Both the position numbers and the translations under genes were made by a program. 31,626 nt of DNA from positions 1 to 31,626 of the IMG/VR virus record IMGVR_UViG_3300032093_000549. One strand, 5' to 3'. The notes below the pieces were generated by a model, which searched no databases, had not been told where the DNA came from, and saw nothing but the letters and a program-made list of their open reading frames with translations. Position 1 is the stretch's first letter. Every line of letters starts with the position of its first letter. This document shows, in pieces, positions 12,305 to 30,584 of this stretch. This DNA comes from a virus.

Positions 12305-15300
12305 ATGAATATTGAATCATTATTATACGAAGCGCTCCAACTCCCGTCAACTAACCGAGCCCATATTAATGCGCTGCGGTACATTTTACATAAAGAAGTT
12401 TCCGTTGATTTAAAGTTCTTAGCGGCACAGTCCCTAACGGAAATTCATAATCAATATAATTGGTGGATAACAGAACGGGGGTTGGACGAATCGTGCATTG
12501 TGGGACCAAACGATAGTGCCGCAACCGTCCGTAAAAAATGTAAAAAAGCGTTCAAACATGGGGAGAAGGTGTACCCCATGCACTGGATTTATGCTGTCTC
12601 TGGCTCCCCTATGGCGTCTGGATTGGGGGAAGAACACAATCCCTACGATTCTCCAGACTATGCCTTAAACGGGTTCACGGGAACGTTTAAAAAGAAACAA
12701 GACCCAGAAGATAAAGAAACGTTAACTCGTCGATTTGCGGATTTAGACCCGATAGAAGAAGAAAAATCCAGTACGGAACGAGTTAGAAGATATTATAAAA
12801 GACATCCCGAAAAGGTCCGTAAATATTTGAAAGATACGGTCAAGGATCGTGTTGCTCGTAATCGGGACCGGGCAAAGGCTATCAAAAAACATGGTAAAGA
12901 AAAGATGAAGAACCATGACGTGCACCATCCGAACGGACCACAAAACGGTGGGGCACGATTGGCTAAAAAAGATCATGGACGGGATAAGGTGAATGAAGAA
13001 TACTCACCAGATGTCATTTCTAGTACGATTCAAGAGTTTGTGAATTTTGCCGTACAAAAACTTCAATTACAAACTCTTCCTACCGTTACTATTATCCCAT
13101 CATCTGACCATATGACGAGTTTGGGATATTATGATCCCATGACGAAGCAAATCAATGTAGTCGTAGAAGGAAGATTACTAGCAGATATTTTACGGACACT
13201 TGCCCACGAATTAGCACATAGAAAACAAGACGAATTGGGATTGATTACCAACCCAATGATTGATGGTGCAACGGGATCTCCCATAGAAAATAACGCAAAC
13301 GCAATTGCAGGAATTCTACTCCGTCAATATGGTCAAAGTAATCCTCGTATATTCATGACCGAAGGATTGTTGATGGAAGGTGGTGCACATGGACATCTAG
13401 CACATCCATTTGAAGACACAGATTTATCGTTTGATGACTTTGATGAAATGATTAGTCGGTCGTTAGTGGGTAATTTAGAAAAGGAAGGACCGGTCGTAGA
13501 AAAAATGGACGGTCAAAATATTGCGTTCACTGTTCGTGATGGAAAGGTTGTATTTGCACGAAACAAAGGACATGTAAAAAATCGTGCAGAAAAAGCACTA
13601 TCAGCAGAAGAATTAGCCAAAATGTTTGCAGGTCGTGGGGAAATCTCCGATGCATTTGCTAAAGCAGCAGAAGATATTGAAGTGGCAATGAGTAAACTGT
13701 CACCTGAAGAAATTGAACAAGTATTTGGAGACGGTAGACGAGTGATGAGTACCGAAATTATTTACCCGGGCACTCGTAACGTAATTCCATATGACAAGAC
13801 GGTGTTGGTATTTCATGGTACATTGGAACATGATGATGATGGCGAAAAAGTCGGTGTTCAAAACACTGAAAATGGACAAATTATTGCTAATGCCGTAACT
13901 AAAGCAAACGCAGATAAACAACGTACGTTTGGTATTTCGGGTCCACGAACAGTTGCTATTTCGGATCAAGTCACTGAAGAAATGCAGCAAGTATACACTC
14001 GATTATCACAAAAATTAGAAGATCTTCGTGCGCAATATAATTTAAAACCATCTGCTACGTTACACGATTATTTGGAAGAATGGTGGAACGAACAATTAAC
14101 CGAAATAGAAAGTCAACAAGGATTTAAGTTCACCAATCAAGAACGTGCTGGACTTATTGCTCGTTGGATTGATAACGATAAAAAGTTTGGAGTAAAAAAT
14201 CTATCCGATGAAAAGAAAGAATGGTTTAGAGAATTTGAAAAGAATGATCTAACACCAATGCTAAAACAATCCGTGAAACCTGTTGAGCAAGTATTTTTAA
14301 CCGCAGGTGTATATGCATTAAAACGTGTTGTAGAGTTTCTATCGGCAAATAATCCTGCAATGGCAGAAGAATTGAAAAAACAATTTGTAGATAGTATACG
14401 TGGTATACAACAAGCGGGTGGTCCTGGAAAATTACAGAAATTAGAATATGAACTAGCTAGATTAAAAGAACTTGGTATTGATAACGTGGTACCAAGTGAA
14501 GGATTAATATTCACATATAATGGTAATCCGTATAAATTAACAGGTGCATTTGCTCCGGTAAATCAAATTATTGGAACAATGAAATATGACAGAGCTCCTG
14601 AAAAACCAGAGGCTTCATCAACAGAGCCGCAAAAGACCGAAGCACCGCCAGAAAAAGCACAAGACGAACCTGTACAGCCAGAAACTCCCGTACAACCACC
14701 TAAACCAATTGCCATCTATCCAGGACGTTTTCAGCCATATCATGCGGGACATCATGTGACGTATGAAGCATTGGTTGAAAAGTTTGGAAGGGAAAACGTG
14801 TATGTAGTGAGTTCAGACAAGCAAGATAGTATTACGTCACCATTTGGGTTCAGTGACAAACAGGAAATCATGACAAGTATGTTTGATATTCCAGAAGATC
14901 GTATTATTCAAGTAAAAAATCCATACAATCCAATAGAAGTAACAAAAGGATTACCCGAAGGAACTCCTGTAATATTTGCAGTGGGTGAGAAAGATGCGCA
15001 ACGATTGGGTGGTAAATACTTCCAAAAATATGATCCAAATGAAAAAATGTTAGGGTACAAACAAGCAGGATATGTGTGGATTGGACCCCCACCAAATCTG
15101 GAAGTTAATGGAAAAGAAATTAGTGGTACACAACTTCGTGCAGTTATGGGTGATCCAGCTATTACGGATAGAGCAAAACAAGAAATTTTTATTAAAATAT
15201 ATGGTAAGTTTGACAAGAACATTTTTGATAAAGTAGTCAAAAAAACGTCGGATGCAGAAGAGGCACGTAAATTAACGGATATGCACGGTAAACCAGAGAA

Positions 15301-16240
15301 ACCTACCACAGAACCAGAAACTACGCCAAAAAAAGGACGTGGAAAAAAACCTGACGAAAAAGCACTTGGTCGTGCTAAATCTGTACTAGGGCAAAAAGTT
15401 CGTAATCCAAAAACGGGTCGGGATATCTTGGTGGCAACTGCATTAAAGTACCCAGAAGATGAACCTGTACGAAAGGCGGCTGAACGTATGGTACAACAAG
15501 CAATGGCGGAAAAAAATGAAATATTATCCGAAGGAAAAGCACCAAAAAAACTTAAGGTATATACACACATCCGTGAATATACCGATGAAGATTTGGAATA
15601 TGAAAAAGACGAATATTTTAATAATGAACGAACATTTGAAGCATTTCCAGATTTAGCAGATTCAGCAGATGAATTAAAAAAATTAATTTCTAATGCGGCA
15701 AGTGAAGTACTAGAAGTGGAAGAACTACAAGCATTAGAAAATAGTGATGTTGGGGAGGTCTTACGTGGTGAAAATAAGATGAAAGTATTAAAAAATCTTA
15801 TTAGTAAAGAAAAAGACGTAAAAGGATTACTTAGTGATATTAAAAATAAGAAGCCGATTGCCATGCCAATTATTATTAAGCACACCAACGGATACTACTT
15901 ATTGGGGGGAAACACTCGGTTGTCAGTCCTTGCGGCAATTGGACATACAATGCCTGTGAAAGTTTTGGGTCAAGCAAGTCCATATCCATCCCCGTATGTA
16001 GTTGGAAAGTCGGGAGACGTAAAAAAGACGGGTAAGAAAAAGACAGGAAACAAAGATTTATTTAAAAAGTTAATGCAGATGCGTATCACTAATCCTGAGA
16101 CGGGTAATCAAGTCAAAGTGGATACGGCAATGGATTATGATAGATTACATCCTGCTCATAAAGCAGCAATGGCGTTTATTCGTCAACACATGAAAGGAAT
16201 TTCCAACCGAGCAGGTATACCAAAAAACAGAAATGACTAA
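12305..16240 (+). CDS. Multi-domain virion-type protein: HNH-like, HExxH peptidase, KxDG nucleotidyltransferase, NMNAT-like, ParB/Srx-like
   Basis: 1311 residues. Domains in order: residues 1-9 MNIESLLYE followed by A, like a capsid-targeting/gp21-cleavage signal; ~150-235 basic, with HDVHHPNGPQNGG resembling an HNH-type segment; ~240-355 a zinc metallopeptidase with H301-E-L-A-H305 and candidate third ligand E328; ~355-560 a ligase-superfamily nucleotidyltransferase with motif I K400-M-D-G403-QN and motif III-like TEIIYPGTRN (E484); ~800-980 an adenylyltransferase like NadM/NadR, with G807RFQPYHAGH816 and ISGTQLR (939-945); ~1070-1225 a ParB/sulfiredoxin-like fold with GGNTRL (1201-1206). 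A Pro/Glu-rich linker (~765-800) precedes the adenylyltransferase. A short motif, [VI].NP.TG followed by TA(L/M).Y, occurs twice, near 1035 and 1260. It ends nine bases before the next gene. Delivery into the host with the DNA is inference; the domain motifs are visible. Confidence 0.85.
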   Translation: MNIESLLYEALQLPSTNRAHINALRYILHKEVSVDLKFLAAQSLTEIHNQYNWWITERGLDESCIVGPNDSAATVRKKCKKAFKHGEKVYPMHWIYAVSGSPMASGLGEEHNPYDSPDYALNGFTGTFKKKQDPEDKETLTRRFADLDPIEEEKSSTERVRRYYKRHPEKVRKYLKDTVKDRVARNRDRAKAIKKHGKEKMKNHDVHHPNGPQNGGARLAKKDHGRDKVNEEYSPDVISSTIQEFVNFAVQKLQLQTLPTVTIIPSSDHMTSLGYYDPMTKQINVVVEGRLLADILRTLAHELAHRKQDELGLITNPMIDGATGSPIENNANAIAGILLRQYGQSNPRIFMTEGLLMEGGAHGHLAHPFEDTDLSFDDFDEMISRSLVGNLEKEGPVVEKMDGQNIAFTVRDGKVVFARNKGHVKNRAEKALSAEELAKMFAGRGEISDAFAKAAEDIEVAMSKLSPEEIEQVFGDGRRVMSTEIIYPGTRNVIPYDKTVLVFHGTLEHDDDGEKVGVQNTENGQIIANAVTKANADKQRTFGISGPRTVAISDQVTEEMQQVYTRLSQKLEDLRAQYNLKPSATLHDYLEEWWNEQLTEIESQQGFKFTNQERAGLIARWIDNDKKFGVKNLSDEKKEWFREFEKNDLTPMLKQSVKPVEQVFLTAGVYALKRVVEFLSANNPAMAEELKKQFVDSIRGIQQAGGPGKLQKLEYELARLKELGIDNVVPSEGLIFTYNGNPYKLTGAFAPVNQIIGTMKYDRAPEKPEASSTEPQKTEAPPEKAQDEPVQPETPVQPPKPIAIYPGRFQPYHAGHHVTYEALVEKFGRENVYVVSSDKQDSITSPFGFSDKQEIMTSMFDIPEDRIIQVKNPYNPIEVTKGLPEGTPVIFAVGEKDAQRLGGKYFQKYDPNEKMLGYKQAGYVWIGPPPNLEVNGKEISGTQLRAVMGDPAITDRAKQEIFIKIYGKFDKNIFDKVVKKTSDAEEARKLTDMHGKPEKPTTEPETTPKKGRGKKPDEKALGRAKSVLGQKVRNPKTGRDILVATALKYPEDEPVRKAAERMVQQAMAEKNEILSEGKAPKKLKVYTHIREYTDEDLEYEKDEYFNNERTFEAFPDLADSADELKKLISNAASEVLEVEELQALENSDVGEVLRGENKMKVLKNLISKEKDVKGLLSDIKNKKPIAMPIIIKHTNGYYLLGGNTRLSVLAAIGHTMPVKVLGQASPYPSPYVVGKSGDVKKTGKKKTGNKDLFKKLMQMRITNPETGNQVKVDTAMDYDRLHPAHKAAMAFIRQHMKGISNRAGIPKNRND

Positions 16241-16249
16241 GGGGTTATT

Positions 16250-16840
16250 ATGGCAGATCATGAAGCAATTAATAATGTACGACGAAAAATTAATGAAGTA
16301 ATGAAAAAAACCGACGAACGTATCGTCGTCGGGTGGCGCCCAGAATTGGCAGAAAAACGAAACGAAGGTGATGTGTGGGAAGATTTGGATGGAAAGAAAT
16401 GGACGATTAAAAATGGTATTAAGCAAAACGTTACGAAACTAGACGGAGCAAAAACGCCATGGTTCTGTCCTATGTGTAGTAAAGCAATGAGTCACCGATT
16501 TGATACAAAATTTTGGATGTTACAGGGCAAATGCATGGACTGCGTTATTAAGGAAGAAACAGAAATCCGTCGCCAGGGAAAATGGAAAGAATACGAACGA
16601 AAAAAACTTCAACAAAATTATGTTGCTTCACTAAAAGATCATATCAATGAATTACAAGATTATCATGATACGGTAACTGCTCCATCTTTTGTCCACGCGG
16701 ATGAAGAAAAAATACTCATGATAGAAAAATGGGATGTTGATATAAACAAAATAAAAACGGATCTTCAAAAAGATATTGAAGAGTTAACAAAACACCTCGC
16801 AGAGTGTGAAGCGGAGATGATGTATGGACAAAGTGATTGA
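16250..16840 (+). CDS. Zinc-ribbon protein upstream of terminase
   Basis: 196 residues. Two CxxC pairs (C73-P-M-C76 and C95-M-D-C98) form a probable zinc ribbon; before it sits GDVWEDLDGKKWTIKNGIKQ, a stretch I recognise from unnamed proteins of T4-like cyanophages. The C-terminal ~100 residues are a charged coiled coil. AAGGGG (16239-16244) precedes the ATG by five bases, and the 3' end overlaps the next gene by 17 bases, so the next two genes and terminase form one translation unit. Position next to gp17 might suggest a packaging or small-terminase role, but nothing in the sequence shows this. Confidence 0.8.
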   Translation: MADHEAINNVRRKINEVMKKTDERIVVGWRPELAEKRNEGDVWEDLDGKKWTIKNGIKQNVTKLDGAKTPWFCPMCSKAMSHRFDTKFWMLQGKCMDCVIKEETEIRRQGKWKEYERKKLQQNYVASLKDHINELQDYHDTVTAPSFVHADEEKILMIEKWDVDINKIKTDLQKDIEELTKHLAECEAEMMYGQSD

Positions 16841-17483
16841 TGCATTTAGAAAATTGATAAAAGATTTTGCCAAGATGCCACAACCAACACAACTAATAGT
16901 GGCGTGCGTGTTGGTTGTTGCTGCATTTAGTACTGGTCAATGTAACAGTGATTCCAAACTTAATCAATTTAGACAAGAATTTGCAAAACTACAAAAAGAA
17001 GCAAACACGGCAAAACAATTTGCGGATAGCACCAATAATATAGTCATTCGCTTAACAACAGAATCACAGCAAAAAGATAAACAAATTGCATCATTGACGG
17101 TCACTATAGATGTTACAAATAAGCAACGATCTATTCTCAAGGGAAGCCTTTCCAGATTAGAGGATAGTTTAGAGGTAACCAAAGACACAGCACAAATGGT
17201 AGCAATACAAGAAGGAATTATTTATAACTTAAAAGAACAAGTGTCCAACGCAGAATCGGTTATCGGACAACAAAAAGAAGTTATAACGGCACAACAATTT
17301 AAAATCACCAAGTTAGACAGTGCCGTAGCAATTGCAACACAGCGTGGCGATAGTTTACAAACAGTTGTTACTAAATTGATTACTATGCCAAAACCACCAC
17401 GTCAATGGATTAGTAAGAAGACCGCTGGTATGATTTCATTTGCAGCAGGTGTCATTATTGGAGATCGGTTGGCAGGGAGATGA
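16824..17483 (+). CDS. Membrane-anchored coiled-coil protein
   Basis: 219 residues. A short amphipathic start is followed by a hydrophobic segment at about residues 23-38 (LIVACVLVVAAFSTG), then ~140 residues of Gln/Lys/Asp-rich coiled coil, and a C-terminal hydrophobic, glycine-containing segment (AGMISFAAGVIIGDRLAG). One N-terminal membrane anchor with a long periplasmic-type coiled coil fits an inner-membrane spanin, but the second hydrophobic end and the position beside terminase also allow another envelope role. The cysteine after the first segment (STGQC) does not fit a lipobox. The start overlaps the zinc-ribbon gene, and the stop is one base before the terminase ATG. Confidence 0.75.
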   Translation: MDKVIDAFRKLIKDFAKMPQPTQLIVACVLVVAAFSTGQCNSDSKLNQFRQEFAKLQKEANTAKQFADSTNNIVIRLTTESQQKDKQIASLTVTIDVTNKQRSILKGSLSRLEDSLEVTKDTAQMVAIQEGIIYNLKEQVSNAESVIGQQKEVITAQQFKITKLDSAVAIATQRGDSLQTVVTKLITMPKPPRQWISKKTAGMISFAAGVIIGDRLAGR

Positions 17484-17484
17484 G

Positions 17485-19062
17485 ATGTCGCAAGATTTAA
17501 AAGAAATTATTAAACAAGAATACAAAAAATGTGCAACCAATCCTGCATATTTTTTGTCTAAGTATTCTTACATTCAACATCCAACCCGTGGTCGGATGTT
17601 GTTTGATTTGTACCATTACCAAAAAGATGCACTGAAAGATTTTGACAATCATGATTATAATATTGTACTCAAGGGTCGGCAGATTGGTATTTCTACATTG
17701 GTTGCTGGATACTCACTGTGGCTCTTGTTATTTCACCGAGACAAAAATATTCTCGTTATTGCCACCAAACAAGAAACTGCAAAGAACTTGGTAACGAAAG
17801 TACGATTCATGCATCAAAATCTTCCTGTGTGGCTACGGGGAAGTGTAACTACTGATAATAAACTCTCCTTACAGTTCGCAAACGGATCACAAATTAAAGC
17901 AGTGGCAAGTAGTAAAGATGCGGGTCGTTCTGAGGCACTGTCTCTCCTTATTCTTGACGAGGCCGCATTCATTGACGATGCAGAAATTATTTGGACAGCT
18001 GCATCCAGTACGTTATCTACGGGTGGTAAAGCCATTCTTTTATCCACCCCAAATGGCATTGGTAATTTTTTTCATAAGATGTGGCAACAAGCAGAAAATA
18101 AATCAAATGGATTTAATCCCATTCTCCTAGATTGGCGGGTCCATCCAGAACGTGATCAAGCATGGCGTGATCGTCAAACAGAATTAATGGGTGAAATGGA
18201 AGCATCTCAAGAACACGATGCATCCTTTATTTTCTCGGGTAACACAGTTATACCGCCGGATATTATTGAGTTTTATAAAAAGACTTATGTGCAAGAACCC
18301 ATCTCCAAACAAGGATTTGATGGGAACTTATGGATCTGGGAATATCCGTTGGCTGGAAAATCGTATGTAGTATGTGCTGACGTTGCACGAGGTGACGGCG
18401 AAGATTATTCTACTTTCCATGTTATTGACGTTGAAAAATCTGTACAAGTTGCCGAATACAAAGGAAAGGTGGAAACAAAACAATTCGGTAATATGTTGGT
18501 ATCTATCGCCACAGAATACAATGATGCACTATTAATACCTGATAATAGTTCTATTGGATGGAACTGTATTCAACAAATTATTGATCGGGGATACAGAAAT
18601 CTTTTTTACATGTCACGAGATTTACAATATGTAGACGTAGAACATCAGGTAACGGGTAGATATGCTCGTGATGAACGAAACATGGTACCAGGCTTCATGA
18701 TTTCCCAACGCACTCGTCCATTAATCATCGCTCGACTAAAAGAATATATGTTGGATAACTCGTTTACAATTCGGTCTGGACGGATGATTGCTGAACTAGA
18801 AACATTTATTTGGAAAAACGGTCGTCCAGAAGCATTGCAGGGATATAATGACGATTTAGTGTTGGCGTTGTGTATTGGACTATGGGTTCGTGATACAGCC
18901 TTACGATTACGAATGGAAGGAATAGAATTGACAAAAATGGCGTTGGATAAAACATCGTATAACACTGTTCCCTTCGTACAACGTGGTGGATTACAAGAAA
19001 ATCCCTATGAAATGCCCATCGGTGACGACCGGACAGAAAATATCAGTTGGTTGATTGGATAA
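17485..19062 (+). CDS. 17: Terminase large subunit (gp17-like)
   Basis: DNA-packaging motor and headful nuclease. 525 residues from the ATG at 17485, chosen because GGGAGATGAG lies just before it and the preceding gene stops at 17483; an upstream in-frame start at 17440 would run inside that gene. ATPase domain: Walker A-like K63-G-R-Q-I-G-I-S-T71, where T4 has SRQLGKT, and Walker B SLLILDEAAF with D158/E159. Nuclease domain (RNase H fold): D299 in CADVARGDGEDYSTF, D353 in LLIPDNSSIGWN, and D456/D457 in YNDDLVLAL. Length is somewhat below what I recall for T4 gp17 (610). The lysine displaced from the usual Walker A place is discussed in the findings. The family call is secure. Confidence 0.96.
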   Translation: MSQDLKEIIKQEYKKCATNPAYFLSKYSYIQHPTRGRMLFDLYHYQKDALKDFDNHDYNIVLKGRQIGISTLVAGYSLWLLLFHRDKNILVIATKQETAKNLVTKVRFMHQNLPVWLRGSVTTDNKLSLQFANGSQIKAVASSKDAGRSEALSLLILDEAAFIDDAEIIWTAASSTLSTGGKAILLSTPNGIGNFFHKMWQQAENKSNGFNPILLDWRVHPERDQAWRDRQTELMGEMEASQEHDASFIFSGNTVIPPDIIEFYKKTYVQEPISKQGFDGNLWIWEYPLAGKSYVVCADVARGDGEDYSTFHVIDVEKSVQVAEYKGKVETKQFGNMLVSIATEYNDALLIPDNSSIGWNCIQQIIDRGYRNLFYMSRDLQYVDVEHQVTGRYARDERNMVPGFMISQRTRPLIIARLKEYMLDNSFTIRSGRMIAELETFIWKNGRPEALQGYNDDLVLALCIGLWVRDTALRLRMEGIELTKMALDKTSYNTVPFVQRGGLQENPYEMPIGDDRTENISWLIG

Positions 19063-19084
19063 TTTTGTAGTATTAGGAAACAGA

Positions 19085-19126
19085 GTTATATTTATATATT
19101 GATATACTTTATCTACTCTACGGAGA
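19085..19126 (+). promoter_or_regulatory. Candidate AT-box promoter and Shine-Dalgarno before 19132
   Basis: The 69-base gap after terminase contains GTTATATTTATATATTG (19085-19101), sharing TATTTATA (19089-19096) with the gaps near 12267 and 29355. CGGAGA (19121-19126) is the Shine-Dalgarno for the ATG at 19132. This is the only gap of any size between 16240 and 26435, so it is the natural place for a promoter driving the small-gene cluster. Confidence 0.4.
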
Positions 19127-19131
19127 TTTGT

Positions 19132-19422
19132 ATGAAACGTAGTGAATTAGAAGAAATTATTATGGAAGAAATTTATAAGACACTGCACGAAGAACGTCTT
19201 ATGAACGAACATGTACTTGACGAAAAATCCGTTCCAGAACCATATGATAGAAAAAATCGTCGTAGAATGAATAGATCACAAATTCTTCGTAGAGACAAGA
19301 TAGGAAAAGCTATGAAGAAAAATAAAAAAATTGTTGCAAAATTTAAAAAGCAATATGGTAGTGAATGGATAGATTATTTATGGGCAACCGCAACGCATAA
19401 CGCCATTAAGGGCGGAGAATAA
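19132..19422 (+). CDS. Small basic protein with capsid-targeting-like N-terminus
   Basis: 96 residues from ATG 19132; the Shine-Dalgarno GGAG six to ten bases before decides this over an upstream in-frame TTG at 19099. The N-terminus MKRSELEEIIME followed by E has an I-x-E site. The rest is strongly basic: PYDRKNRRRMNRSQILRRDK, then a KFKKQYGSEWIDYLWATATH end that I recognise as a conserved signature of small T4-like phage proteins of unknown function. A small, basic, probably DNA-associated internal head protein is the simplest reading, but unproven. Confidence 0.8.
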   Translation: MKRSELEEIIMEEIYKTLHEERLMNEHVLDEKSVPEPYDRKNRRRMNRSQILRRDKIGKAMKKNKKIVAKFKKQYGSEWIDYLWATATHNAIKGGE

Positions 19423-19424
19423 AT

Positions 19425-20294
19425 ATGATTAGAATGATGGGATTAGTGGACTTACGTCCTATAAAAACATTACGAAGTACCGTAGATATTGAAGAAGCGT
19501 TGGATCCGGTTGGAAAAGAAGATAGTGATGTTGATAATGATGGAGATACGGATAAGTCAGACGAATATTTAAAGAATCGTCGTGATGCAATTTCCAAGAA
19601 CGTTGACGAAGATTCTGCCCGTAACCAACTAATGGCAACGATAGTGAAGTGGAAGGGCGAAGATGGAAAAGATCATGAAGCAACATTAAAATCCATCTAC
19701 GGTAGCCCACAAACGTATCCAAAGGGATCTCCAGCTCGTCGTGCAGCAGACCAAATTTACGCACGTGCCAAGAATCCACAACAAGCACGTCCAGCACGAA
19801 CATTTGCACCACCAAGAAAGTCCAGTAAATATAATTTTAGACCTGGTACAGATGACGAGTTTGAATATGAAAGAGACAAACGTGGTTTGTGGGGTGCTGA
19901 TCTTGACGAAACGATTACTGAAGACGATAATCCACAGCCATCTAATGACCATGAAGTGTCGATGGCAAACAATTCATTAGATATTATTATTCAAAGTGCT
20001 AATGAATTAAAAACTAAATTAGGACAAGAAGAAAAAGATATTCCTGCGTGGATTCAAGATCATATCACAAATGCCGCTAATTTCATTCAACAAGCAGCAA
20101 ATAATTATCACGAGTACAATACGCCTGACCAACCACAACCTGATCAACTGGAACAAGAACCAATGAACGAAAAGGCTCCAGAAGGTTGGGAAGGTACTGT
20201 CAAGGCAATGAAAAAACATAAAGAAATTGACAACCCTTGGGCACTTGCATATTACATGAAGTCCAAGGGATATAAATCCCACAAGAGCGAATAA
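19425..20294 (+). CDS. Acidic/repeat-rich phage protein with EF-hand-like loop
   Basis: 289 residues, function unknown. Early on is VDIEE followed by A (residues 20-25), a possible gp21 site, and DSDVDNDGDTDKSDEYLKNR, an EF-hand/calcium-loop-like acidic motif. Middle: a KGSPARRAADQIYARAKN block. Residues ~195-245 (NSLDIIIQSANELKTKLG, then IPAWIQDHITNAANFIQQAA) form a helical module frequent in T4-like phage proteins, and the C-terminus has NPWALAYYMKSKGYKSHKS, another recurrent phage motif. Gene starts two bases after the preceding stop. It looks like a concatenation of small modules that occur separately in related phages; an internal or structural role is inference. Confidence 0.8.
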   Translation: MIRMMGLVDLRPIKTLRSTVDIEEALDPVGKEDSDVDNDGDTDKSDEYLKNRRDAISKNVDEDSARNQLMATIVKWKGEDGKDHEATLKSIYGSPQTYPKGSPARRAADQIYARAKNPQQARPARTFAPPRKSSKYNFRPGTDDEFEYERDKRGLWGADLDETITEDDNPQPSNDHEVSMANNSLDIIIQSANELKTKLGQEEKDIPAWIQDHITNAANFIQQAANNYHEYNTPDQPQPDQLEQEPMNEKAPEGWEGTVKAMKKHKEIDNPWALAYYMKSKGYKSHKSE

Positions 20295-20295
20295 T

Positions 20296-20658
20296 ATGGA
20301 ACAGATTGCAAAGTTTCTTGGCACTTTGATGTCAAGTCGGACTCAGGCACACATCTTTCATCTTCAAACTCCATCATTTGCTGCACATAAAGCGTTAGAT
20401 GATTATTATAGTCAAATTACTGACTTGATTGATTCGTATGCAGAAATGGCACAAGGTCGGTACGGGATTATTCGTGGATACGTCATGCAAGGTCAAATTT
20501 TTGAAGACGACACGGCAATTAAATATTTTGGCGGTTTGCAGAAGTTTGTGGACGGTATTCGCGGTTCTCTTCCACAAGACGGTGAATTGAATAATACCGT
20601 AGATGAAATTTCAGGATTGATATCCAGTACATTATATAAACTTAAATTCCTCAAGTAA
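20296..20658 (+). CDS. DUF5856-like, Dps/ferritin-like helical protein
   Basis: 120 residues, all helical. SSRTQAHIFHLQTPSFAAHK, then ALDDYYSQITDLIDSYAEM, resembles the DUF5856 family of T4-like phages, which in turn looks like the first helices of Dps/ferritin-type bundles (histidines facing an acidic D..Y...D helix). Whether it binds iron cannot be judged; a full ferroxidase set is not obvious. It lacks the L-x-E N-terminus seen in its neighbours, so it may not be head-targeted. It starts one base after the previous stop and is followed by the next gene after one base. Confidence 0.75.
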   Translation: MEQIAKFLGTLMSSRTQAHIFHLQTPSFAAHKALDDYYSQITDLIDSYAEMAQGRYGIIRGYVMQGQIFEDDTAIKYFGGLQKFVDGIRGSLPQDGELNNTVDEISGLISSTLYKLKFLK

Positions 20659-20659
20659 A

Positions 20660-20992
20660 ATGAAATACAAAGAATTTTACGAAGATATCTGTCGGTGTGA
20701 TGAAGGATGTGGATGCGAAGAAACTACCAATGAATACACGGGTGATACGTTTAGTGCCCCCCAACCAGATTTTGATACGTATTCAACACACAATCCCGAC
20801 CCACATAAAAAGAAAATTGAAGAGTTGGTAGCATTATTAGAAAAGAATGTTCCAACAAGTCCTGATAAATGGGCAAAAGCAAAAGCCGCAGCTCGTGCTA
20901 AATTCAAAGTGTACCCTTCCGCTTACGCCAATCTCTGGGCAGCTAAGAAATATAAAAGTATGGGTGGTGGATGGAAGAAAGGAAAGAAGTGA
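20660..20992 (+). CDS. Small phage protein with conserved basic C-terminal module
   Basis: 110 residues. Two halves: an acidic, Cys-rich N-terminus (MKYKEFYEDICRCDEGCGCE, five Cys counting none downstream) and a basic C-terminal module (WAKAKAAARAKFKVYPSAYA, then NLWAAKKYKSMGGGW) that I recognise as a widespread phage motif of unknown function. The first eight residues, ending FYE, loosely match the N-terminal pattern of the cluster, with F where L/I is expected. Its TGA overlaps a GTG start (GTGA, 20989-20992) of a short gene. Confidence 0.8.
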   Translation: MKYKEFYEDICRCDEGCGCEETTNEYTGDTFSAPQPDFDTYSTHNPDPHKKKIEELVALLEKNVPTSPDKWAKAKAAARAKFKVYPSAYANLWAAKKYKSMGGGWKKGKK

Positions 20993-21144
20993 TTAAATTA
21001 GTTGATATTATTTTGGAAAAGTGGACAAAGAAATATAAAAAGTCCATTAATTGCAGCAGTCCCAAAGGGTTTTCCCAACGAGCTCATTGCGCTGGTCGTA
21101 AAAAACGGAAGCGTGGGGGCACAACAAAATCCAAATCTGTATGA
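20989..21144 (+). CDS. 51-residue basic, Cys/His-containing protein (short gene)
   Basis: Reads from GTG at 20989 (overlapping the previous stop as GTGA) to TGA at 21142-21144, which overlaps the next ATG at 21141. The product starts MIKLVDIILE, followed by K: ten residues ending in I-L-E, the best length match in the cluster to a capsid-targeting/cleavage signal. It then has a very basic body with SSPKGFSQRAHCAGRKKRKR and ends in TTKSKSV. The SPKGFSQRAHCAGR stretch is familiar from small proteins of other T4-like phages; function unknown. Tight coupling at both ends and the intact motif make it a real gene despite its size. A DNA-binding internal head protein is inferred from charge and N-terminus. 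Confidence 0.8.
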   Translation: MIKLVDIILEKWTKKYKKSINCSSPKGFSQRAHCAGRKKRKRGGTTKSKSV

Positions 21145-21464
21145 TTAGTCTCACTGAATTGTTGGAAGACGTAGTAGAAGAACTTGACGAAAAATATAAA
21201 ACCAAGGGTAACTTGGGCAAATGGCTTCGTCAAAAATGGGTGGATATTTCTCGTAAAGATAAAAGTGGGAAGCATCCACCGTGTGGCGCATCTGCGGGTA
21301 AAAAGGAACGGAAGGGTGGTTCTGCGAAATATCCGAAATGTCGTCCAGCTCGTTCAGCGGCAGCAATGAGCAAGGGTGAAAAACGATCAGCAGTTGTTCG
21401 TAAACGTAAAGCGGGAAATCCTGGCGGGAAACCTACGATGGTCGCAACATATAAAAAGAGTTAA
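21141..21464 (+). CDS. Small basic Cys-containing protein with capsid-targeting-like N-terminus
   Basis: 107 residues. MISLTELLE followed by D gives an L-L-E site after nine residues. The body, KWLRQKWVDISRKDKSGKHP then PCGASAGKKERKGG and YPKCRPARSAAAMSKGEK, ending in RKRKAGNPGGKPT, is a conserved phage module in which WVDI, PCG, YPKC and the mS..EK.saV.RKR end are the fixed points. The two Cys may hold a metal or the protein may simply coat DNA; function unknown. Its ATG overlaps the TGA of the 51-residue gene (ATGA). Confidence 0.8.
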   Translation: MISLTELLEDVVEELDEKYKTKGNLGKWLRQKWVDISRKDKSGKHPPCGASAGKKERKGGSAKYPKCRPARSAAAMSKGEKRSAVVRKRKAGNPGGKPTMVATYKKS

Positions 21465-21468
21465 TACT

Positions 21469-21891
21469 ATGGATAATATTAATGAAGCTTGTTGGGAAGG
21501 ATATAAGCAGGTGGGAATGAAAGAAAAGGGTGGTAAGATGGTTCCCAATTGTGTCCCCTTAGACGAAAGTTGTATATATGACGGTGAATTTTGTCCTGCA
21601 TGTCTTGCCAAGTATATCTTAGAAAACAAAAAAGCAGGATACTTAGAAGAAGCCGAATACCAAGGACGCAAGGTTCCTTTAGGTAAACCAATGCGCGGCG
21701 ATGTAAAAAAATTCAAAGTATTTGTCAAAGACCCCTCGACAGGCAATGTCAAAAAGGTTAATTTTGGCGATAAGACTATGAGAATTAAAAAGTCTAATCC
21801 TGCTCGTCGCAAGTCATTCAGAGCACGTCACAATTGTTCTAATCCTGGTCCACGAACAAAAGCAAGATTTTGGTCGTGCAAAAAATGGTAA
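21469..21891 (+). CDS. Cassette member B1: CWEGY/NCVP protein with basic Cys C-terminal module
   Basis: 140 residues from ATG 21469, four bases after the preceding stop; a longer in-frame start at 21376 lies inside the previous gene and is rejected. The N-terminal part, CWEGYKQVGMKEKGGKMVPN then CVP, is a phage module I have seen in other T4-like genomes. Middle: CIYDGEFCPACLAKY, a possible metal site, then an LEEAEYQGRKVPLGKP linker. The last 58 residues (KVFVKDPSTGNVKKVNFGD, IKKSNPARRKSFRARHNC, PGPRTKARFWSCKKW) match the whole of the short gene at 23017: 48 of 58 identical by my count. First gene of the duplicated B-C-A cassette. Function unknown. Confidence 0.8.
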   Translation: MDNINEACWEGYKQVGMKEKGGKMVPNCVPLDESCIYDGEFCPACLAKYILENKKAGYLEEAEYQGRKVPLGKPMRGDVKKFKVFVKDPSTGNVKKVNFGDKTMRIKKSNPARRKSFRARHNCSNPGPRTKARFWSCKKW

Positions 21892-21897
21892 ACTACT

Positions 21898-22608
21898 ATG
21901 AATGATCTAACACTAACACAACTTATACAAGAAATTCTTGACGAAGAATCAGAAACGGCCAAAAAAGCAAAAGCTATGGGATTGACCTACATGAAATTTG
22001 GTCGTTGGGGCAAGGACGGTAAAGTTACCCACACAACACAAAACGGAGTTCTGACTCCTGCAAAAACAAACGCCGTAGGTACTAATCCTACCGCAGGTAC
22101 GACGACACCTACGCCAATGAATAAAGTTCAGACCCCAGCAACTTCTCAACAACCAACTATAAAATCTCCGGGGTCGTTTAAAAAAGATGCCGGACAATCA
22201 ATGTATAACGCAACATATCGTAGTATTTCTGCGGCAGGACTAGGTAATAAAGATGCCTTTGACAAGGGATATGTCCCATTGACTGTTAAATCAGCAAGTC
22301 CTAAAAGTTGGTCTAGAGGTGATGGAGCACGACATAAAGATTGGATAACCGTGGAGCCCAACAGTGAGTGGCAACAATTTGACTCGGCAAAGGAAAAAGA
22401 TCCCCAAGTAGTACAAAAGTCTCTACAACAATATATTGATTCTACGGGTGCCAAGAAAATCGGTCAAATTAAAGGTCAGTTTGGTTCTTCCGCACACAAT
22501 GATGTATATAAGTTGGGATCAACGTTGTTTGTTAATCGTGGAGATAGAGTAGAAGTGGGAAGCACGGGTAGATTAAAAAATAAGGATGTGTGGGGGTTTA
22601 AAAAATAA
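21898..22608 (+). CDS. Cassette member C1: modular protein, shared N-terminus, distinct C-terminal domain
   Basis: 236 residues. N-terminus MNDLTLTQLIQE has an I-x-E site at 12 residues. Residues ~20-50 (ETAKKAKAMGLTYMKFGRWG, KDGKVTHTTQNG) match in layout the start of the gene at 23187 and similar stretches in other phage proteins. A Thr/Pro-rich linker (~55-90) separates this from a C-terminal part (~95-236) containing MYNATYRSISAAGLG, SPKSWSRGDGARHKDWITVE and GSTLFVNRGDRVEVGSTGRL, which I do not recognise and which differs from the C-terminus at 23187. Shared head and changed tail suggests a delivery module with exchangeable cargo; that is inference. Confidence 0.78.
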   Translation: MNDLTLTQLIQEILDEESETAKKAKAMGLTYMKFGRWGKDGKVTHTTQNGVLTPAKTNAVGTNPTAGTTTPTPMNKVQTPATSQQPTIKSPGSFKKDAGQSMYNATYRSISAAGLGNKDAFDKGYVPLTVKSASPKSWSRGDGARHKDWITVEPNSEWQQFDSAKEKDPQVVQKSLQQYIDSTGAKKIGQIKGQFGSSAHNDVYKLGSTLFVNRGDRVEVGSTGRLKNKDVWGFKK

Positions 22609-22609
22609 T

Positions 22610-23020
22610 ATGATACGTCTCCGTGATTTATTGACCGAAGCAGAGACTAAAAAAGACACTCCCTACATGAGTGGGGATACTTATATTAGTAAGGAAGAAG
22701 CAAAGCGTATCTATGATTATATGGAATATGACTTTGACTTCAACCAATTTGTTTTGGGCATGAACACGGAATTAGAACACCAAGATGTAACGGACGGGAG
22801 TTTAGTAAAAACAGCAATGATAGCTGCTGCTCATTTACGGGAAGTTCCAGACTATTACACGAAATTAAAACAACACGTAGAAAAACAAAAAGTTTCCGAA
22901 GATGGTGCTCCAACGGGAGGAATCGGATTAAGTCTTCCCGGCGGTTATATTAATGGAGCACCAAAACCCAAAGATGTCAAAAAGATGCGGAAGCATCTCA
23001 ATAAGGAGAAAGATCAATGA
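22610..23020 (+). CDS. Cassette member A1: DUF5661-like protein
   Basis: 136 residues from ATG 22610, one base after the previous stop. MIRLRDLLTE followed by A is a ten-residue N-terminus with a textbook L-T-E|A site. Residues ~28-90 (EEAKRIYDYMEYDFDFNQF, VLGMNTELEHQDVTDGS, AAHLREVPDYYTKLKQ) fit DUF5661, a small family in which F..GM..ELEH and AHL.E.PDYY are fixed. A ~45-residue tail (EDGAPTGGIGLSLPGGYING, then KPKDVKKMRKHL) is absent from its copy at 23935. 82 of the first 92 residues match that copy by my count. Its TGA overlaps the next ATG (23017). Function unknown. Confidence 0.85.
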   Translation: MIRLRDLLTEAETKKDTPYMSGDTYISKEEAKRIYDYMEYDFDFNQFVLGMNTELEHQDVTDGSLVKTAMIAAAHLREVPDYYTKLKQHVEKQKVSEDGAPTGGIGLSLPGGYINGAPKPKDVKKMRKHLNKEKDQ

Positions 23021-23193
23021 TTCGTCTAAAAGATCCATCGTCGGGAAATGTCAAGAAAGTCAATTTTGGTGATCCGAATATGAGAATTAAAAAGTCTAAT
23101 CCAGCTCGTCGGAAGTCATTTAGAGCACGTCATAATTGTGCAAACCCTGGTCCACGCACAAAAGCTCGTTATTGGAGTTGCAGAAAATGGTAA
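23017..23193 (+). CDS. Cassette member B2: 58-residue basic Cys module (short gene)
   Basis: Reads from ATG 23017 (overlapping the stop of the previous gene as ATGA) to TAA at 23191-23193. The product is MIRLKDPSSGNVKKVNFGD, then IKKSNPARRKSFRARHNC and PGPRTKARYWSCRKW, equal to the last 58 residues of the protein at 21469 with about ten changes. The N-terminal two thirds of that gene are gone, and the protein starts with MIRL, as do other cluster members. It is thus a shortened copy that kept frame, start and coupling, and overlaps the next gene by seven bases. Two Cys and many Arg/Lys suggest nucleic-acid binding; unproven. Confidence 0.82.
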   Translation: MIRLKDPSSGNVKKVNFGDPNMRIKKSNPARRKSFRARHNCANPGPRTKARYWSCRKW

Positions 23194-23933
23194 ATTTAAC
23201 ATCGTTATTACTATCGGAAGACGTGGGTGAAGAAGCCAAAAAACGTAATCTTCACCATATAGGTTGGGGACGTTACGCTGATGCTTCTGGTAAACTTGTA
23301 GCCAAAAGTGTGGATGGTAAACTAGTGGATGTCCCAAAGGATGAACTTGACCCTGAAGTAGACCAACCAACTAGAGACATTGAAGGTTTACCTAACGAAA
23401 AACGTCCGGGTGCATGGAAAAACTGGAAACCAAAATTATCTACTACTGACGATGAATTACGTCAGTACAATTACGCAAGTAGAGCAATTAGAGCAATTGG
23501 CCCCGTGATGGGTTCTGAACGAGAGATAAAACATAGAAAACTTCCTCCTGGCGAAGTGACATATGAAAAAGGAGCGGGTAATCCATACGTGGCCAGAAAT
23601 CCAGATGGAAAATTAGCATCATTTTCACACGACACATTTGCAGCCGCATTTGCAAACGGGAAATCATTGAAAGGATATGATTTTGTAAAAGATTATGATG
23701 GTTCTATGAAAAAATTATCAAAGGAACTAAAACCTACGCTTGATAAACTAAAGTCAGCTGAAACTGGTACCAATGATAAAGGTAAGATAAAATCTTTTTT
23801 AAGAGATTTAGTTACCGCATTTGTTTTAGGTACGCGCCGGGGCCGTAAAGGTTCCCGAGCGTCAAGTTCTGGAGGTAGCGGATTCGGCGGCGGAGGCGGG
23901 TTCAGTGGCGGCGGCGGGGGTTCATCGTTCTAA
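23187..23933 (+). CDS. Cassette member C2: modular protein with Gly-rich tail
   Basis: 248 residues from ATG 23187, chosen because the N-terminus MVNLTSLLLSE followed by D then fits the cluster pattern; the in-frame ATG at 23136 lies within the preceding gene. EEAKKRNLHHIGWGRYADAS and GKLVAKSVDGKLVDVPKDEL match the layout of the start of C1. The central part (~90-215: YASRAIRAIGPVMGSEREIK, SFSHDTFAAAFANGKSLKGY, LKPTLDKLKSAETG) is unlike C1 and not recognised. The end (~228-248) is almost only Gly/Ser/Phe, with a matching GC-rich stretch at 23875-23925, unlike its neighbours. Function unknown. Confidence 0.8.
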   Translation: MVNLTSLLLSEDVGEEAKKRNLHHIGWGRYADASGKLVAKSVDGKLVDVPKDELDPEVDQPTRDIEGLPNEKRPGAWKNWKPKLSTTDDELRQYNYASRAIRAIGPVMGSEREIKHRKLPPGEVTYEKGAGNPYVARNPDGKLASFSHDTFAAAFANGKSLKGYDFVKDYDGSMKKLSKELKPTLDKLKSAETGTNDKGKIKSFLRDLVTAFVLGTRRGRKGSRASSSGGSGFGGGGGFSGGGGGSSF

Positions 23934-23934
23934 C

Positions 23935-24213
23935 ATGATTTTACTTCGTGATTTATTGACCGAGGCCGATACCAAAAAAGACACTCCGTATGTGAGTGGG
24001 GATACTTATATTAGTACGGATGAAGCAAAACGTATCTATGATTATATGGGATATGATTTTGACTTCAACCAATTTGTTTTGGGTATGAATGTAGAACTGG
24101 AACACCAAGATGTGACGGACGGGAGTTTAATCAAAACTGCGATGATTTCCGCCGCACATCTCCGAGAGGTTCCTGATTATTATACAAAGTTGAAACAATA
24201 TGTGGAGAAATAA
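23935..24213 (+). CDS. Cassette member A2: DUF5661-like paralogue
   Basis: 92 residues from ATG 23935, one base after the previous stop; the in-frame upstream ATG at 23905 lies in the Gly-rich end of C2 and is rejected. MILLRDLLTE followed by A repeats the L-T-E|A signal, and the DUF5661-like core (FNQFVLGMNVELEHQDVTDG, AAHLREVPDYYTKLKQYVEK) is 82/92 identical to A1. It stops where A1 continues with its 45-residue tail. The DNA is also visibly alike over the whole shared part, so the duplication is recent. One base separates it from the next gene. Confidence 0.85.
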   Translation: MILLRDLLTEADTKKDTPYVSGDTYISTDEAKRIYDYMGYDFDFNQFVLGMNVELEHQDVTDGSLIKTAMISAAHLREVPDYYTKLKQYVEK

Positions 24214-24214
24214 A

Positions 24215-24550
24215 ATGATTCGTCTTACCGATTTATTGATGGAAAACGCAGAACGTCGGGTCAACTTGATGAAAATTCAAGCCATCATGGAAAAATTGTA
24301 CCCAGAACTAACAGATACCCAATCAAAAAAACTTATGGAATTGTGCACAGAAGTTCATATGATGGCTTCCCAAATGAATACCATCCCCTATATTAGAACA
24401 GAGAGTAGTTTAGTTGAATGGACCATTTTAGCTGCAGCATTTAAGGCAAAAGTCACTGAATTAAAAGAAGAAGTAGTCAAAGTATGTGAAGATAAAAAAA
24501 TTGATTCGGCGACTGTAGTAAAAGCACTTGACGAAGTATTAACATATTAA
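24215..24550 (+). CDS. Small helical protein with capsid-targeting-like N-terminus
   Basis: 111 residues from ATG 24215, one base after the previous stop. MIRLTDLLME followed by N: ten residues ending L-M-E, almost the same as the start of A1. The rest is helical (KIQAIMEKLYPELTDTQSKK, SSLVEWTILAAAFKAKVTEL, DSATVVKALDEVLTY) with no motif I can name. It is the last of the small genes before portal. A head-core or internal protein is inferred from the N-terminus and position. Confidence 0.75.
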   Translation: MIRLTDLLMENAERRVNLMKIQAIMEKLYPELTDTQSKKLMELCTEVHMMASQMNTIPYIRTESSLVEWTILAAAFKAKVTELKEEVVKVCEDKKIDSATVVKALDEVLTY

Positions 24551-27378: not shown

Positions 27379-27843
27379 ATGAATAGAGAAGAAAAACTTC
27401 GTGAAATGATTCGGGAATTAATTGAACAAGAATTGAATGAAATCAGTACCACTGCTGGTGTTGCGGGATATTTAACACCTAAAGCATTTGTTGGTGATAA
27501 GAAAGCAAATACTGATCACATCAAACAAATGGCCAAACGTATTGGATATACATTAACTAAGCGTGGCGCAGAAGCTACGGGCAAAGGTGATAAGTTAAAC
27601 GAAAATTATTATACTTACCGTAACGATCCCAATAAACTTCCACATCAAAAGATTGGAGAAGCCATTTCCGCAATTAATAAACAATTAAAGTTAATGGAAA
27701 AGGCGTTACATTACAACACACGTTTAAAAAACGAATATGGTATCAGTAACGAATCGTTGTGGAAACGAACACAACATCAAATGACTAAATTAGAAGCACG
27801 ACTCATGGAAATGGCTCGTCGCCTTCGTGAGATGCGAGGATAA
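27379..27843 (+). CDS. Small prohead-core-like protein
   Basis: 154 residues. N-terminal helix MNREEKLREMIRELIEQELN E followed by ISTTAGVAGYLTPKAFVGDK; the ELNE|I point (residue 21) is an L-N-E site, and EISTTAG.AGY.TP is a conserved phage motif I have seen before portal/protease genes in related phages. C-terminal half helical and basic, ending LEARLMEMARRLREMRG. It lies directly before gp21 and is likely a substrate or core partner. Function unknown. Confidence 0.75.
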   Translation: MNREEKLREMIRELIEQELNEISTTAGVAGYLTPKAFVGDKKANTDHIKQMAKRIGYTLTKRGAEATGKGDKLNENYYTYRNDPNKLPHQKIGEAISAINKQLKLMEKALHYNTRLKNEYGISNESLWKRTQHQMTKLEARLMEMARRLREMRG

Positions 27844-27844
27844 T

Positions 27845-28429
27845 ATGGGACTTCTCTGTGAATATACCGAATTACATTATGACCGTAACATTCTAACGGA
27901 AGCGTTAGATGGAAGTAAACCTTTCATCCTAAAAAACGTCGTATTACAACGGGCTAATGCAAAAAATCAAAATGGTCGTGTGTATCCAAAAGAAGTATTG
28001 ATGCGTGAGGCAGCAGTTTACAAGAAAAACTTCGTAGATAGTCGTCGTGCATTAGGTGAACTGGACCATCCTGAAAGTCCCGTCGTCAACCTCAAGAATG
28101 TGTGCTGTAACGTGGTGGGGTTGTGGACGGACGGTGATGATGTTAAAGGCGACATTGAAATTTTGACCACACCAACCGGTAATATTGTACGGGAACTCAT
28201 CAAGAACAATATTCGTCTCGGAGTATCATCCAGAGGTATGGGATCGGTGCGCCAAATGGGAGAAAATACGGTAGAAGTTCAAGAAGATTTCTCACTAATT
28301 TGCTTTGATATTGTAAGTAATCCCTCAACAATTGGGGCATTCATTAACGAAAATGTACAGTCTAAGATTGTTACACCATATGATGCAATTGATAAATTGG
28401 TTCACGATTTCTTAAGCGAAGTTAAATAA
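27845..28429 (+). CDS. 21: Prohead core protease (gp21-like)
   Basis: Serine protease that cuts scaffold, capsid and internal head proteins after L/I-x-E during head maturation. 194 residues from ATG 27845, one base after the previous stop; the in-frame ATG at 27827 would overlap that gene and adds an unlikely MRCEDN. Herpesvirus-assemblin-type catalytic motifs: LGELDHPESP with H75, and RLGVSSRGMG with S128/S129 (one the nucleophile); NGRVYPKEVL (43-52) is the usual N-terminal strand. RNILTE followed by A (residues 14-20) is itself a gp21-type site, which fits self-processing. T4 gp21 is 212 residues as I recall. Its likely substrates are the genes around it carrying L/I-x-E N-termini. Confidence 0.95.
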   Translation: MGLLCEYTELHYDRNILTEALDGSKPFILKNVVLQRANAKNQNGRVYPKEVLMREAAVYKKNFVDSRRALGELDHPESPVVNLKNVCCNVVGLWTDGDDVKGDIEILTTPTGNIVRELIKNNIRLGVSSRGMGSVRQMGENTVEVQEDFSLICFDIVSNPSTIGAFINENVQSKIVTPYDAIDKLVHDFLSEVK

Positions 28430-29117: not shown

Positions 29118-29333
29118 ATGTACGTAAAGGTCAATGAAGGAAAGGATGAATTAGGAAAGGCATTAAAACAGTTTACTAAAATGGTAAAAAAGTCAGAGTT
29201 AATACAAGAACTCAGAAATCGTGAACATTTCTTAAAACCCTCTAAGAAGCGTATTTTTAAACGCCAAGAAGCATTACGCCGCAGAAAACGTGAAGAAAGA
29301 CGAGCGGCACGACAAAAACATTACGATAATTGA
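29118..29333 (+). CDS. rpsU: Phage-encoded ribosomal protein bS21
   Basis: 71 residues, full length for the family. MYVKVNEGKDELGKALKQFT, KMVKKSELIQELRNREHFLK, then PSKKRIFKRQEALRRRKREE fits bS21: V.V.E.E.l..AL..F......G.l.e.R.R....KPS..R......A..R....., with the highly basic C-terminal half that lies in the platform of the 30S subunit near the anti-Shine-Dalgarno. A strong AAGGGGG (29107-29113) precedes the ATG by four bases. It is placed among late head genes, so it would be made with structural proteins. By known biology, bS21 exchanges on ribosomes and helps initiation; replacing the host copy to favour phage messages is a published idea for viral bS21, here inference. Confidence 0.93.
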   Translation: MYVKVNEGKDELGKALKQFTKMVKKSELIQELRNREHFLKPSKKRIFKRQEALRRRKREERRAARQKHYDN

Positions 29334-29459: not shown

Positions 29460-30584
29460 ATGGCACAAATTACCAACAAGCTTTTAAAAGAAGCCATTGC
29501 CGACGCAGAAGCAGTTCGTGAAACTGCTGTTGCGAACGCAAAGCTCGTTTTAGAAGAAGCAATTACACCACAAATTCGTGATATGATTGCCCGTCGTCTT
29601 CGTGTTGAAGCAATGGAAGGCGAGGAAGAAAAGGAAGAAGTGAAAGAAGAATCAGTAAAAGAACTTCCACACCAAGACGCTGAGGCAGAAGGAGGTGCAG
29701 ACTTCCCAGCCGATTCATCAACAGTTGGCGCTTCCGATAACAAGGAACCATCTGATGATGCATTTGACACATCGGCAATTGGCGACGGTGGTGAAAATAA
29801 AGAAGATAGTCACACGGATTGGTACGATGATTGGTCCGAAAGTGATTTTGACCTTGACGAAGTAATCAAGGAATTAGAAGAAGATATTGCACGTCTTTCA
29901 GAAGCAGAACACGAAGACGAAGCAGAAGAGAAGGAAGAAGCTCCAGAAGCTGAAAAGGCTCCAGAAGCAGAGGAAGAAATGAAGAAGGAAGGATGGAAGA
30001 AAAATGAAGTTTCACACGAAACTCAAGATGCAGATCCATCAAAGTTTGCCAAAGCACCAGTCGTTGAAGACGATATGGAAGCTGGTGAAGAAGGTGAAGA
30101 AGAACTTGATCTTGAAGCAATTCTTGCAGAACTTGAAGCCGACGAAGACGAAATGGGCGCAAAGCCAGATGCTCATGACGCCAAAAAAGCAATGGCTGCT
30201 AAACTTGCGGGACTCAAGAACGAATTGGCACAATATCGGGAAGCAGTCAATATTCTCCGAGGCCGTTTACAAGAAGTTAACTTATTAAATGCTAAGTTAC
30301 TCTTCACAAACAAGATGTTCCGTAAGGACTCTTTGACCAACGAACAAAAGATTCGCATTGTGGAATCATTTGATCGTGCAACAACGGTTCGTGAAGTGAA
30401 GTTAGTATACACAGCATTAGTTGAAAATCTTGCAACAGCAGCAAAGACGTTCAACACATCACGCAAGAAAGTTGTTACCGAAGGATTAGCCTCTAAGGCA
30501 ACTCCAACAACGGCACCAAAGAAAGAAGTTATCGTTGAAAATACGGTAGCTCGTCGTTTACAAGAACTCGCAGGAATTATCTAA
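29460..30584 (+). CDS. 22: Prohead core scaffold protein (gp22-like)
   Basis: 374 residues. Forms the inner core on which the capsid shell assembles and is later degraded by gp21. N-terminus MAQITNKLLKE followed by A, with AIADAEAVRETAVANAKLVL, then a long, extremely acidic middle (~60-235, dominated by Glu/Asp/Ala), and a helical C-terminus (LAGLKNELAQYREAVNILRG, NEQKIRIVESFDRATTVREV, TFNTSRKKVVTEGLASK) of the cyanophage gp22 type. Several L/I-x-E sites (LLKE, VLEE|A) fit its destruction by the protease. The middle acidic part is longer than I would expect from T4 gp22 (269 residues as I recall). Position just before gp23 agrees. Confidence 0.9.
   Translation: MAQITNKLLKEAIADAEAVRETAVANAKLVLEEAITPQIRDMIARRLRVEAMEGEEEKEEVKEESVKELPHQDAEAEGGADFPADSSTVGASDNKEPSDDAFDTSAIGDGGENKEDSHTDWYDDWSESDFDLDEVIKELEEDIARLSEAEHEDEAEEKEEAPEAEKAPEAEEEMKKEGWKKNEVSHETQDADPSKFAKAPVVEDDMEAGEEGEEELDLEAILAELEADEDEMGAKPDAHDAKKAMAAKLAGLKNELAQYREAVNILRGRLQEVNLLNAKLLFTNKMFRKDSLTNEQKIRIVESFDRATTVREVKLVYTALVENLATAAKTFNTSRKKVVTEGLASKATPTTAPKKEVIVENTVARRLQELAGII

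Follow-up and report, generated by a model that had tools for sequence, protein, structure and literature searches.

The internal proteins IPI-III and Alt of phage T4 carry capsid-targeting sequences that are cleaved by gp21 (PMC9026906). DarB of phage P1 is directed to the P1 head by an N-terminal sequence of 30 residues (PMC9024508), and inner head proteins of phage SPN3US are also processed by a protease (PMC5694885). Polyvalent proteins are multidomain proteins thought to be delivered together with DNA and released by proteolysis (PMC5512222). Here we analyse a stretch of 31,626 nucleotides (the window; IMG/VR record IMGVR_UViG_3300032093_000549), a 31.6-kb piece of the genome of an uncultured T4-like phage, in which a gp21-type prohead protease gene accompanies a series of genes whose products begin with a short leader ending near LxE. 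We consider it likely, with a probability of about 0.82, that these shared N-termini are capsid-targeting propeptides of head cargo, of the kind known from T4, because the leaders are enriched and conserved, because the same bodies lack leaders in phages that have no such protease and because leader-type starts are associated with detection in the virion proteome of cyanophage S-CREM2.

The resemblance to T4 IPI-III and Alt lies in a leader of about 10 residues that ends near LxE and stands on otherwise different proteins, in the S77 protease and in the basic nature of several bodies. Unlike in T4, the window proteins are more numerous and varied, their leaders are of an L..LL.E type and LxE sites also occur between domains. 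In contrast to the window leaders, the P1 Dar proteins share no N-terminal consensus in the account available to us (PMC9024508), and SPN3US has several propeptides of more than 100 residues, with cleavage at AxE (PMC5694885). The release of polyvalent proteins is ascribed to an embedded metallopeptidase (PMC5512222), whereas here we would ascribe it to the prohead protease. None of the T4 internal-protein families (IPI, IPII, IPIII, Alt) appeared when ten window proteins were scanned against Pfam and PHROG, no direct comparison with the T4 sequences having been run. The lack of a body match lowers the case for membership by descent, but not for a shared way of working.

An initial annotation had listed nine N-termini ending in [L/I]-x-E, and all nine lie where it placed them. 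All candidates are on the plus strand, and the arrow in each leader marks the predicted site. The largest product is a multidomain cargo candidate of 1311 residues (12305..16240; leader MNIESLLYE↓A, 12305-12331), followed by a candidate at 19132..19422 (leader MKRSELEEIIME↓E, 19132-19167), with similar starts in contigs G001, G002 and G004. The open reading frame at 20989..21144 (leader [V]IKLVDIILE↓K, 20989-21018) in fact uses a GTG start, encodes a basic protein of 51 residues and was missed by the gene caller; its body nonetheless recurs in 20 contexts, 17 of which have LxE in the corresponding position. The basic candidate at 21141..21464 (leader MISLTELLE↓D) carries one more conserved site at residue 17 (LDE↓K, 21189-21191) and has leaderless homologues. 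The candidate at 21898..22608 (leader MNDLTLTQLIQE↓I, 21898-21933) shares its first module with the virion-detected kinase gp14 of S-CREM2 (pairwise E=2e-8). The remaining members of the original list are a DUF5661 (PF18905) candidate at 22610..23020 (leader MIRLRDLLTE↓A, 22610-22639), a candidate at 23187..23933 (leader MVNLTSLLLSE↓D, 23187-23219), a second DUF5661-type copy at 23935..24213 (leader MILLRDLLTE↓A, 23935-23964) and a candidate at 24215..24550 (leader MIRLTDLLME↓N, 24215-24244). The bodies are mostly unrelated, as had been proposed, but the proteins at 22610 and 23935 form a homologous pair.

Two further candidates were absent from that list, one at 20660..20992 (leader MKYKEFYE↓D, 20660-20683, T4-like in style) with a recurring YPSAYAN body module, and a two-module candidate at 21469..21891 (leader MDNINE↓A, 21469-21486) with an internal LEE↓A site at residue 61 (21649-21651), 5' of a module that we refer to as EYQG. 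A possible additional one, at 27379..27843 (MNREEKLREMIRE↓LIEQELNE↓I), fits the strict pattern defined below. With eleven or twelve candidates, the idea of a set much larger than that of T4 finds moderate support. Among ten small candidates, seven have basic mature bodies (pI 8.8-11.3) and three acidic ones (pI 4.6-6.1). A tblastn search of the annotated phage collection with the DUF5661 protein at 22610 and the 21898 protein returned no match.

A strict leader pattern, [LIVMF][LI]xE with the Glu at residues 7-15, is present in 10 of the 30 called window genes and at 2.4% of internal positions (binomial p about 1e-9). The ten comprise seven of the nine N-termini listed originally, the 27379 product, the scaffold and the capsid protein; the 21141 leader, LLE ending at residue 9, fails this pattern. 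When genes within 12.5 kb of the protease are set against those farther away, the window alone gives 9/24 versus 1/6 (p=0.33). The same comparison was made in five records, namely four long contigs and Flavobacterium phage immuto. Each of the four contigs has an excess near the protease (7/31 versus 6/117, p=0.006; 5/27 versus 4/160, p=0.004; 7/31 versus 1/134, p=3e-5; 8/30 versus 4/68, p=0.007), and the five records pooled give 31/144 near and 33/676 far genes (p=2e-9). An amphipathic form of the leader is found, again pooled, in 30/144 near and 17/676 far genes, as against 12/934 in an internal-Met control.

The leaders are also retained within protein families. Hydrophobic-hydrophobic-x-E occurs within the first 16 residues in 35 of the 36 distinct N-termini of 24215 homologues at portal loci, the start nearest that of the query having been taken where several were possible, and the signal is kept though body identity drops to 27%. 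DUF5661 bodies are preceded by MIRLRDLLTE, MRTYFQFITE (L226) or MKTYRQLITE (L228). For the 21141 family, 80 loci yielded 33 distinct start sets, one of them cut by a contig end; the other 32, judged by eye, all have a leader together with [LM]DE at the body edge.

The 21141 body also occurs in Pelagibacter and other phages. None of the 85 loci nearest HTVC027P (80 IMG/VR loci and five annotated phages) has a leader-type sequence 5' of the body, and only a few have alternative upstream starts. Of 50 records tested from the leadered set, 34 contain peptidase S77, compared with 0/30 from the leaderless set. Restricting the comparison to records of at least 15 kb gives 25/28 versus 0/11, with two of the 28 looking like one contig. 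Of the genomes deposited as complete, all five whose cargo has a leader or is fused (C48C1, HTVC008M, Melnitz-3, immuto and Mel-JY01) encode S77, as against 0/9 whose cargo is leaderless; related lineages do not count as independent events, and two of the five were reached through a T4-like portal and protease, so that the sample is not blind. Gp23 was found in 5/50 records of the S4 sample and in 0/37 leaderless records.

Published virion proteomes bear on whether such proteins reach the head. For S-CREM2, 52 virion proteins have been published with their coordinates, together with a warning from the authors about carry-over (PMC10665884). We mapped all 219 genes of OR473000 and set aside 24 detected structural proteins, leaving 28 detected and 167 undetected ones. 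The strict pattern of the window is present in 6/28 detected versus 7/167 undetected proteins (p=0.004). A T4-type core pattern ([FYL]..F[LIVMF].E in the first 16 residues), chosen after the detected list had been seen, separates them as 5/28 versus 0/167 (p=4e-5), and as 4/23 versus 0/51 among proteins of at least 150 residues (p=0.008). Three other variants give p=0.0007, 0.0007 and 0.010, the last becoming 0.056 at 150 residues or more. The five detected carriers of the core are a SAM hydrolase, gp13, the kinase gp14, gp136 and a cytidylyltransferase. The Cas9-like nuclease gp12 (L483 7704-10313), also listed in the S-CREM2 virion, has a leader-like LRFASFMAE↓A at residues 17-25. Between them, studies of S-CREM2 (PMC10665884), S-SM1 (PMC3037559) and S-SCSM1 (PMC9602691) report cytidylyltransferase, kinase and SAM hydrolase in virions of T4-like phages, a cytidylyltransferase having been detected in the S-SM1 virion. 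Some of these enzymes share modules with window proteins; besides the 21898 protein, the first module of the 23187 protein weakly matches cyanophage cytidyltransferases (E 1e-4 to 7e-3). The words 'targeting', 'internal protein' and 'cleavage' do not occur in the S-CREM2 text as available to us (PMC10665884), and a loading signal is an addition of the present analysis.

Several observations weigh against head targeting by these leaders, or limit its reach. The leaders of immuto are unclustered (4/25 near versus 18/197 far, p=0.22), and clustering near the protease is therefore not universal; an enrichment near the protease in relatives is borne out by the four contigs and the pooled records, but not by immuto alone. 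In the Aegir-type set, 7 of the 50 tested records are leaderless, and S77 was found in only 10 of the other 43, which are fused; the fused records without S77 are mostly fragments, but one is 123 kb and another 85 kb long. Peptidase_S78, considered as an alternative protease, was found in 0/18 chosen fused records. Many T4-like relatives have DUF5661 bodies that start without a leader (MKKKISREQ or similar), in some cases on contigs that hold S77 (L208/L136, contig G054; L153, contig G070), which tells against universal loading of the DUF5661 protein. In the 21141 protein an Asp directly follows LLE; in the T4 IPIII leader, an Asp at position 10 is reported to prevent processing but not targeting (PMC9026906). 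Finally, a loose leader pattern fails to separate the S-CREM2 proteins (8/28 versus 37/167, p=0.30).

The initial annotation overlooked that the leader-type site also lies between domains inside cargo proteins. The EYQG/NPARRKSF module stands free in podo- and siphophages and is elsewhere fused behind many different sequences. Its 148 distinct occurrences reduce to 9 leaderless-like rows and 119 fused contexts once near-duplicates and short ends are dropped. [LIVMF]xE↓[AGS] stands at the upstream edge of the module in 115/119 fused contexts, as against 24/1541 other upstream offsets (1.6%; Fisher p=3e-147, computed ignoring relatedness), with Glu at P1 in 92% (a fixed column) and L, I, V or M at P3 in 94%. 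Eight of the nine leaderless-like rows begin with Met-Ala, the ninth being a false row inside an immuto protein; the free copies thus begin at the P1' residue, without LxE. A second module, GG.GHLAHPFED, has LxE directly 5' in 29/29 contexts and is preceded by a metallopeptidase-like region in the window and by a cytidylyltransferase domain in Mel-JY01. A third, FSQRAHC, has LxE in 17/20 contexts, and a fourth, CWxGY (51 contexts), has it 1 residue upstream in 47%, 3 residues in 14% and 4 residues in 22%. Only five contexts were available for the KAMG module.

These junctions suggest that the prohead protease probably also cuts multidomain cargo between its modules. Counting against such cutting, DVDND (34 contexts) and YPSAYAN (40 contexts) have no site at the module edge. 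It is possible, though distinctly less probable, that the LxE belongs to the conserved sequence of the module itself or reflects a linker preference, and that the cargo stays whole. The Ala-Glu-Tyr 3' of the EYQG site is conserved as well, the junction contexts are related by descent and many fused records show no S77, all of which would fit an intact chain. However, the site precedes unrelated upstream sequences, the second and third modules also have it at their edge, and the Met-Ala starts of free-standing copies lack it. An intact chain would be a rival to inter-module cutting only, leaving the N-terminal leaders as they are.

Another alternative concerns the leaders themselves. The tagged proteins could be prohead core or assembly factors, like T4 gp67 and gp68, that are cut but not delivered, since the same protease cuts T4 core proteins (PMC9026906) and the tagged genes adjoin head genes. 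We regard this as unlikely, as the tagged bodies are variable, in part multidomain with enzyme-like domains, and have homologues in phages with unrelated heads, and as the leader proteins of the S-CREM2 virion include the three enzymes named above. A chance resemblance, in which the starts would be amphipathic helices of an ordinary sort in small phage proteins, is very improbable, for although some genes far from the protease match too (33/676), the internal and far controls, the conservation of the leaders and their link with the protease largely refute it. Secretion or membrane signals were rejected given leaders of about 10 residues that are charged and common to scaffold and capsid, and a gene-calling artefact was rejected as families keep the start (the 24215 family, with the start nearest the query's chosen).

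If the leaders target cargo to the head, the cargo would include enzymes, a proposal of the initial annotation that is supported for the 1311-residue protein, whose gene lies among late and head genes and encodes several domains in one chain. Residues 801-982 form a cytidylyltransferase-like domain (PF01467, 22 bits against a cut-off of 21; PHROG 395, E=6e-11). A metallopeptidase-like region matches DUF6782 below cut-off (15.8-17.9 versus 27 bits), and HELAH, which would be a metallopeptidase motif, is present in the sequence. An internal LxE site (E358↓G, 13376-13378) separates the metallopeptidase-like region from a region, residues about 357-790, with a weak resemblance to RNA ligases. Of 16 members with this region, 2 match the PHROG 548 RNA ligase family (best E 0.001), but 6 weakly match a tail chaperone family. 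Its AlphaFold model is of moderate quality (mean pLDDT 67); T4 RNA ligases top the Foldseek list of PDB structures at E 0.02-1, none below 0.001, and among viral models homologous cytidyltransferase-like proteins come first, RNA ligases appearing from E 0.007 onwards. When the ligase-like alignment was searched as a profile against PDB sequences, no hit fell below E 0.4. Within the region, KxDG, presumably the RNA ligase motif, is invariant except at x.

The surrounding genes are those of a T4-like head. The terminase (17485-19062; PHROG and gene-call scan) and the portal (start at 24561; PHROG scan) are followed by the prohead protease (27845..28429, plus strand), which, as initially proposed, is encoded in the window (Peptidase_S77, PF03420, E=3e-27; PHROG 207) and has an NILTE↓A site of its own at residue 19. 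A ribosomal protein S21 homologue (29118-29333; PF01165, E=2e-11) lies between protease and scaffold, and Mel-JY01 has one at the same place. The putative scaffold (29460..30584, plus strand; MAQITNKLLKE↓A), assigned by gene order and its C-terminus and without a family match in the profile scan, contains two more LxE↓A sites, at residues 33 and 148, and the partial major capsid gene (30606..31626, plus strand; MSDVQEFINE↓A) is assigned by gene order and homologues; both share the signal, in agreement with the initial annotation. Judged by the portal, the annotated phages nearest to the window are Microcystis phage Mel-JY01 (54.5% identity over 76%) and immuto (51.4% over 76%). Their head genes resemble the window in order, with the terminase immediately 5' of the portal, unlike in the window, where the leader-bearing genes sit between the two.

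Scaffolds of the window, contigs G001-G004 and immuto (L085 25061; L082 11676) have an RLQELAGII-like C-terminal motif in common, and other immuto genes carry RMQxLAGIITE near the N-terminus, perhaps as a second scaffold-type signal. Four immuto genes (L082 3807, 17632 and 18633; L085 1803) share a longer leader resembling FDLKKFLVENKLTxNSxLLxE on different bodies. Within the cargo block of the window, a DUF5856 protein (20296-20658; E=2.5e-22; PHROG 858, 'starvation-inducible regulator') has no LxE leader. A short second copy of the NPARRKSFRARHNC module (23017-23193), with neither leader nor EYQG start, adjoins leader-bearing genes, and the protein at 19425-20294 has a DVDNDGDTDKSDEYL calcium-binding-like motif that recurs across several unnamed phage families.

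What the sequences themselves show is that the leaders exist, are enriched and conserved and are missing from phages that lack the protease, that module junctions follow a rule and that leaders are associated with a published virion proteome. From this we infer a course of events in which the amphipathic leader would bind the scaffold core, so that the cargo is built into the prohead alongside the other bearers of this signal, namely scaffold, capsid protein and protease. The S77 protease would then cut after [L/I/V/M]-x-E and remove the leader, and cutting at the LxE sites between modules would turn one chain into several mature proteins. These may remain with the DNA and pass into the host, as is established for T4. 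The earlier proposal that one gp21-type leader loads many proteins gains support from the enrichment, the conservation, the protease link and the S-CREM2 association. On balance, though with less confidence than for the leaders themselves, we favour the wider view that freshwater and marine T4-like phages that bear S77 use a general delivery code, in which a leader would load any protein, polyproteins cut at LxE↓A would release effectors, and bodies would move as site-edged modules that are leaderless where the protease is absent. Neither inter-module LxE sites nor sets of leader-tagged cargo in these phages came up in the open-licence literature that was searched.

If this is true, the set of proteins injected by abundant aquatic T4-like phages would become predictable from a short signal, and many unnamed small genes would become candidates for effectors of takeover or anti-defence. 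The route by which the reported enzymes reach cyanophage virions would be explained, and the prohead protease would gain a second job in processing cargo polyproteins. Natural leaders would also be available for loading proteins into phage heads.

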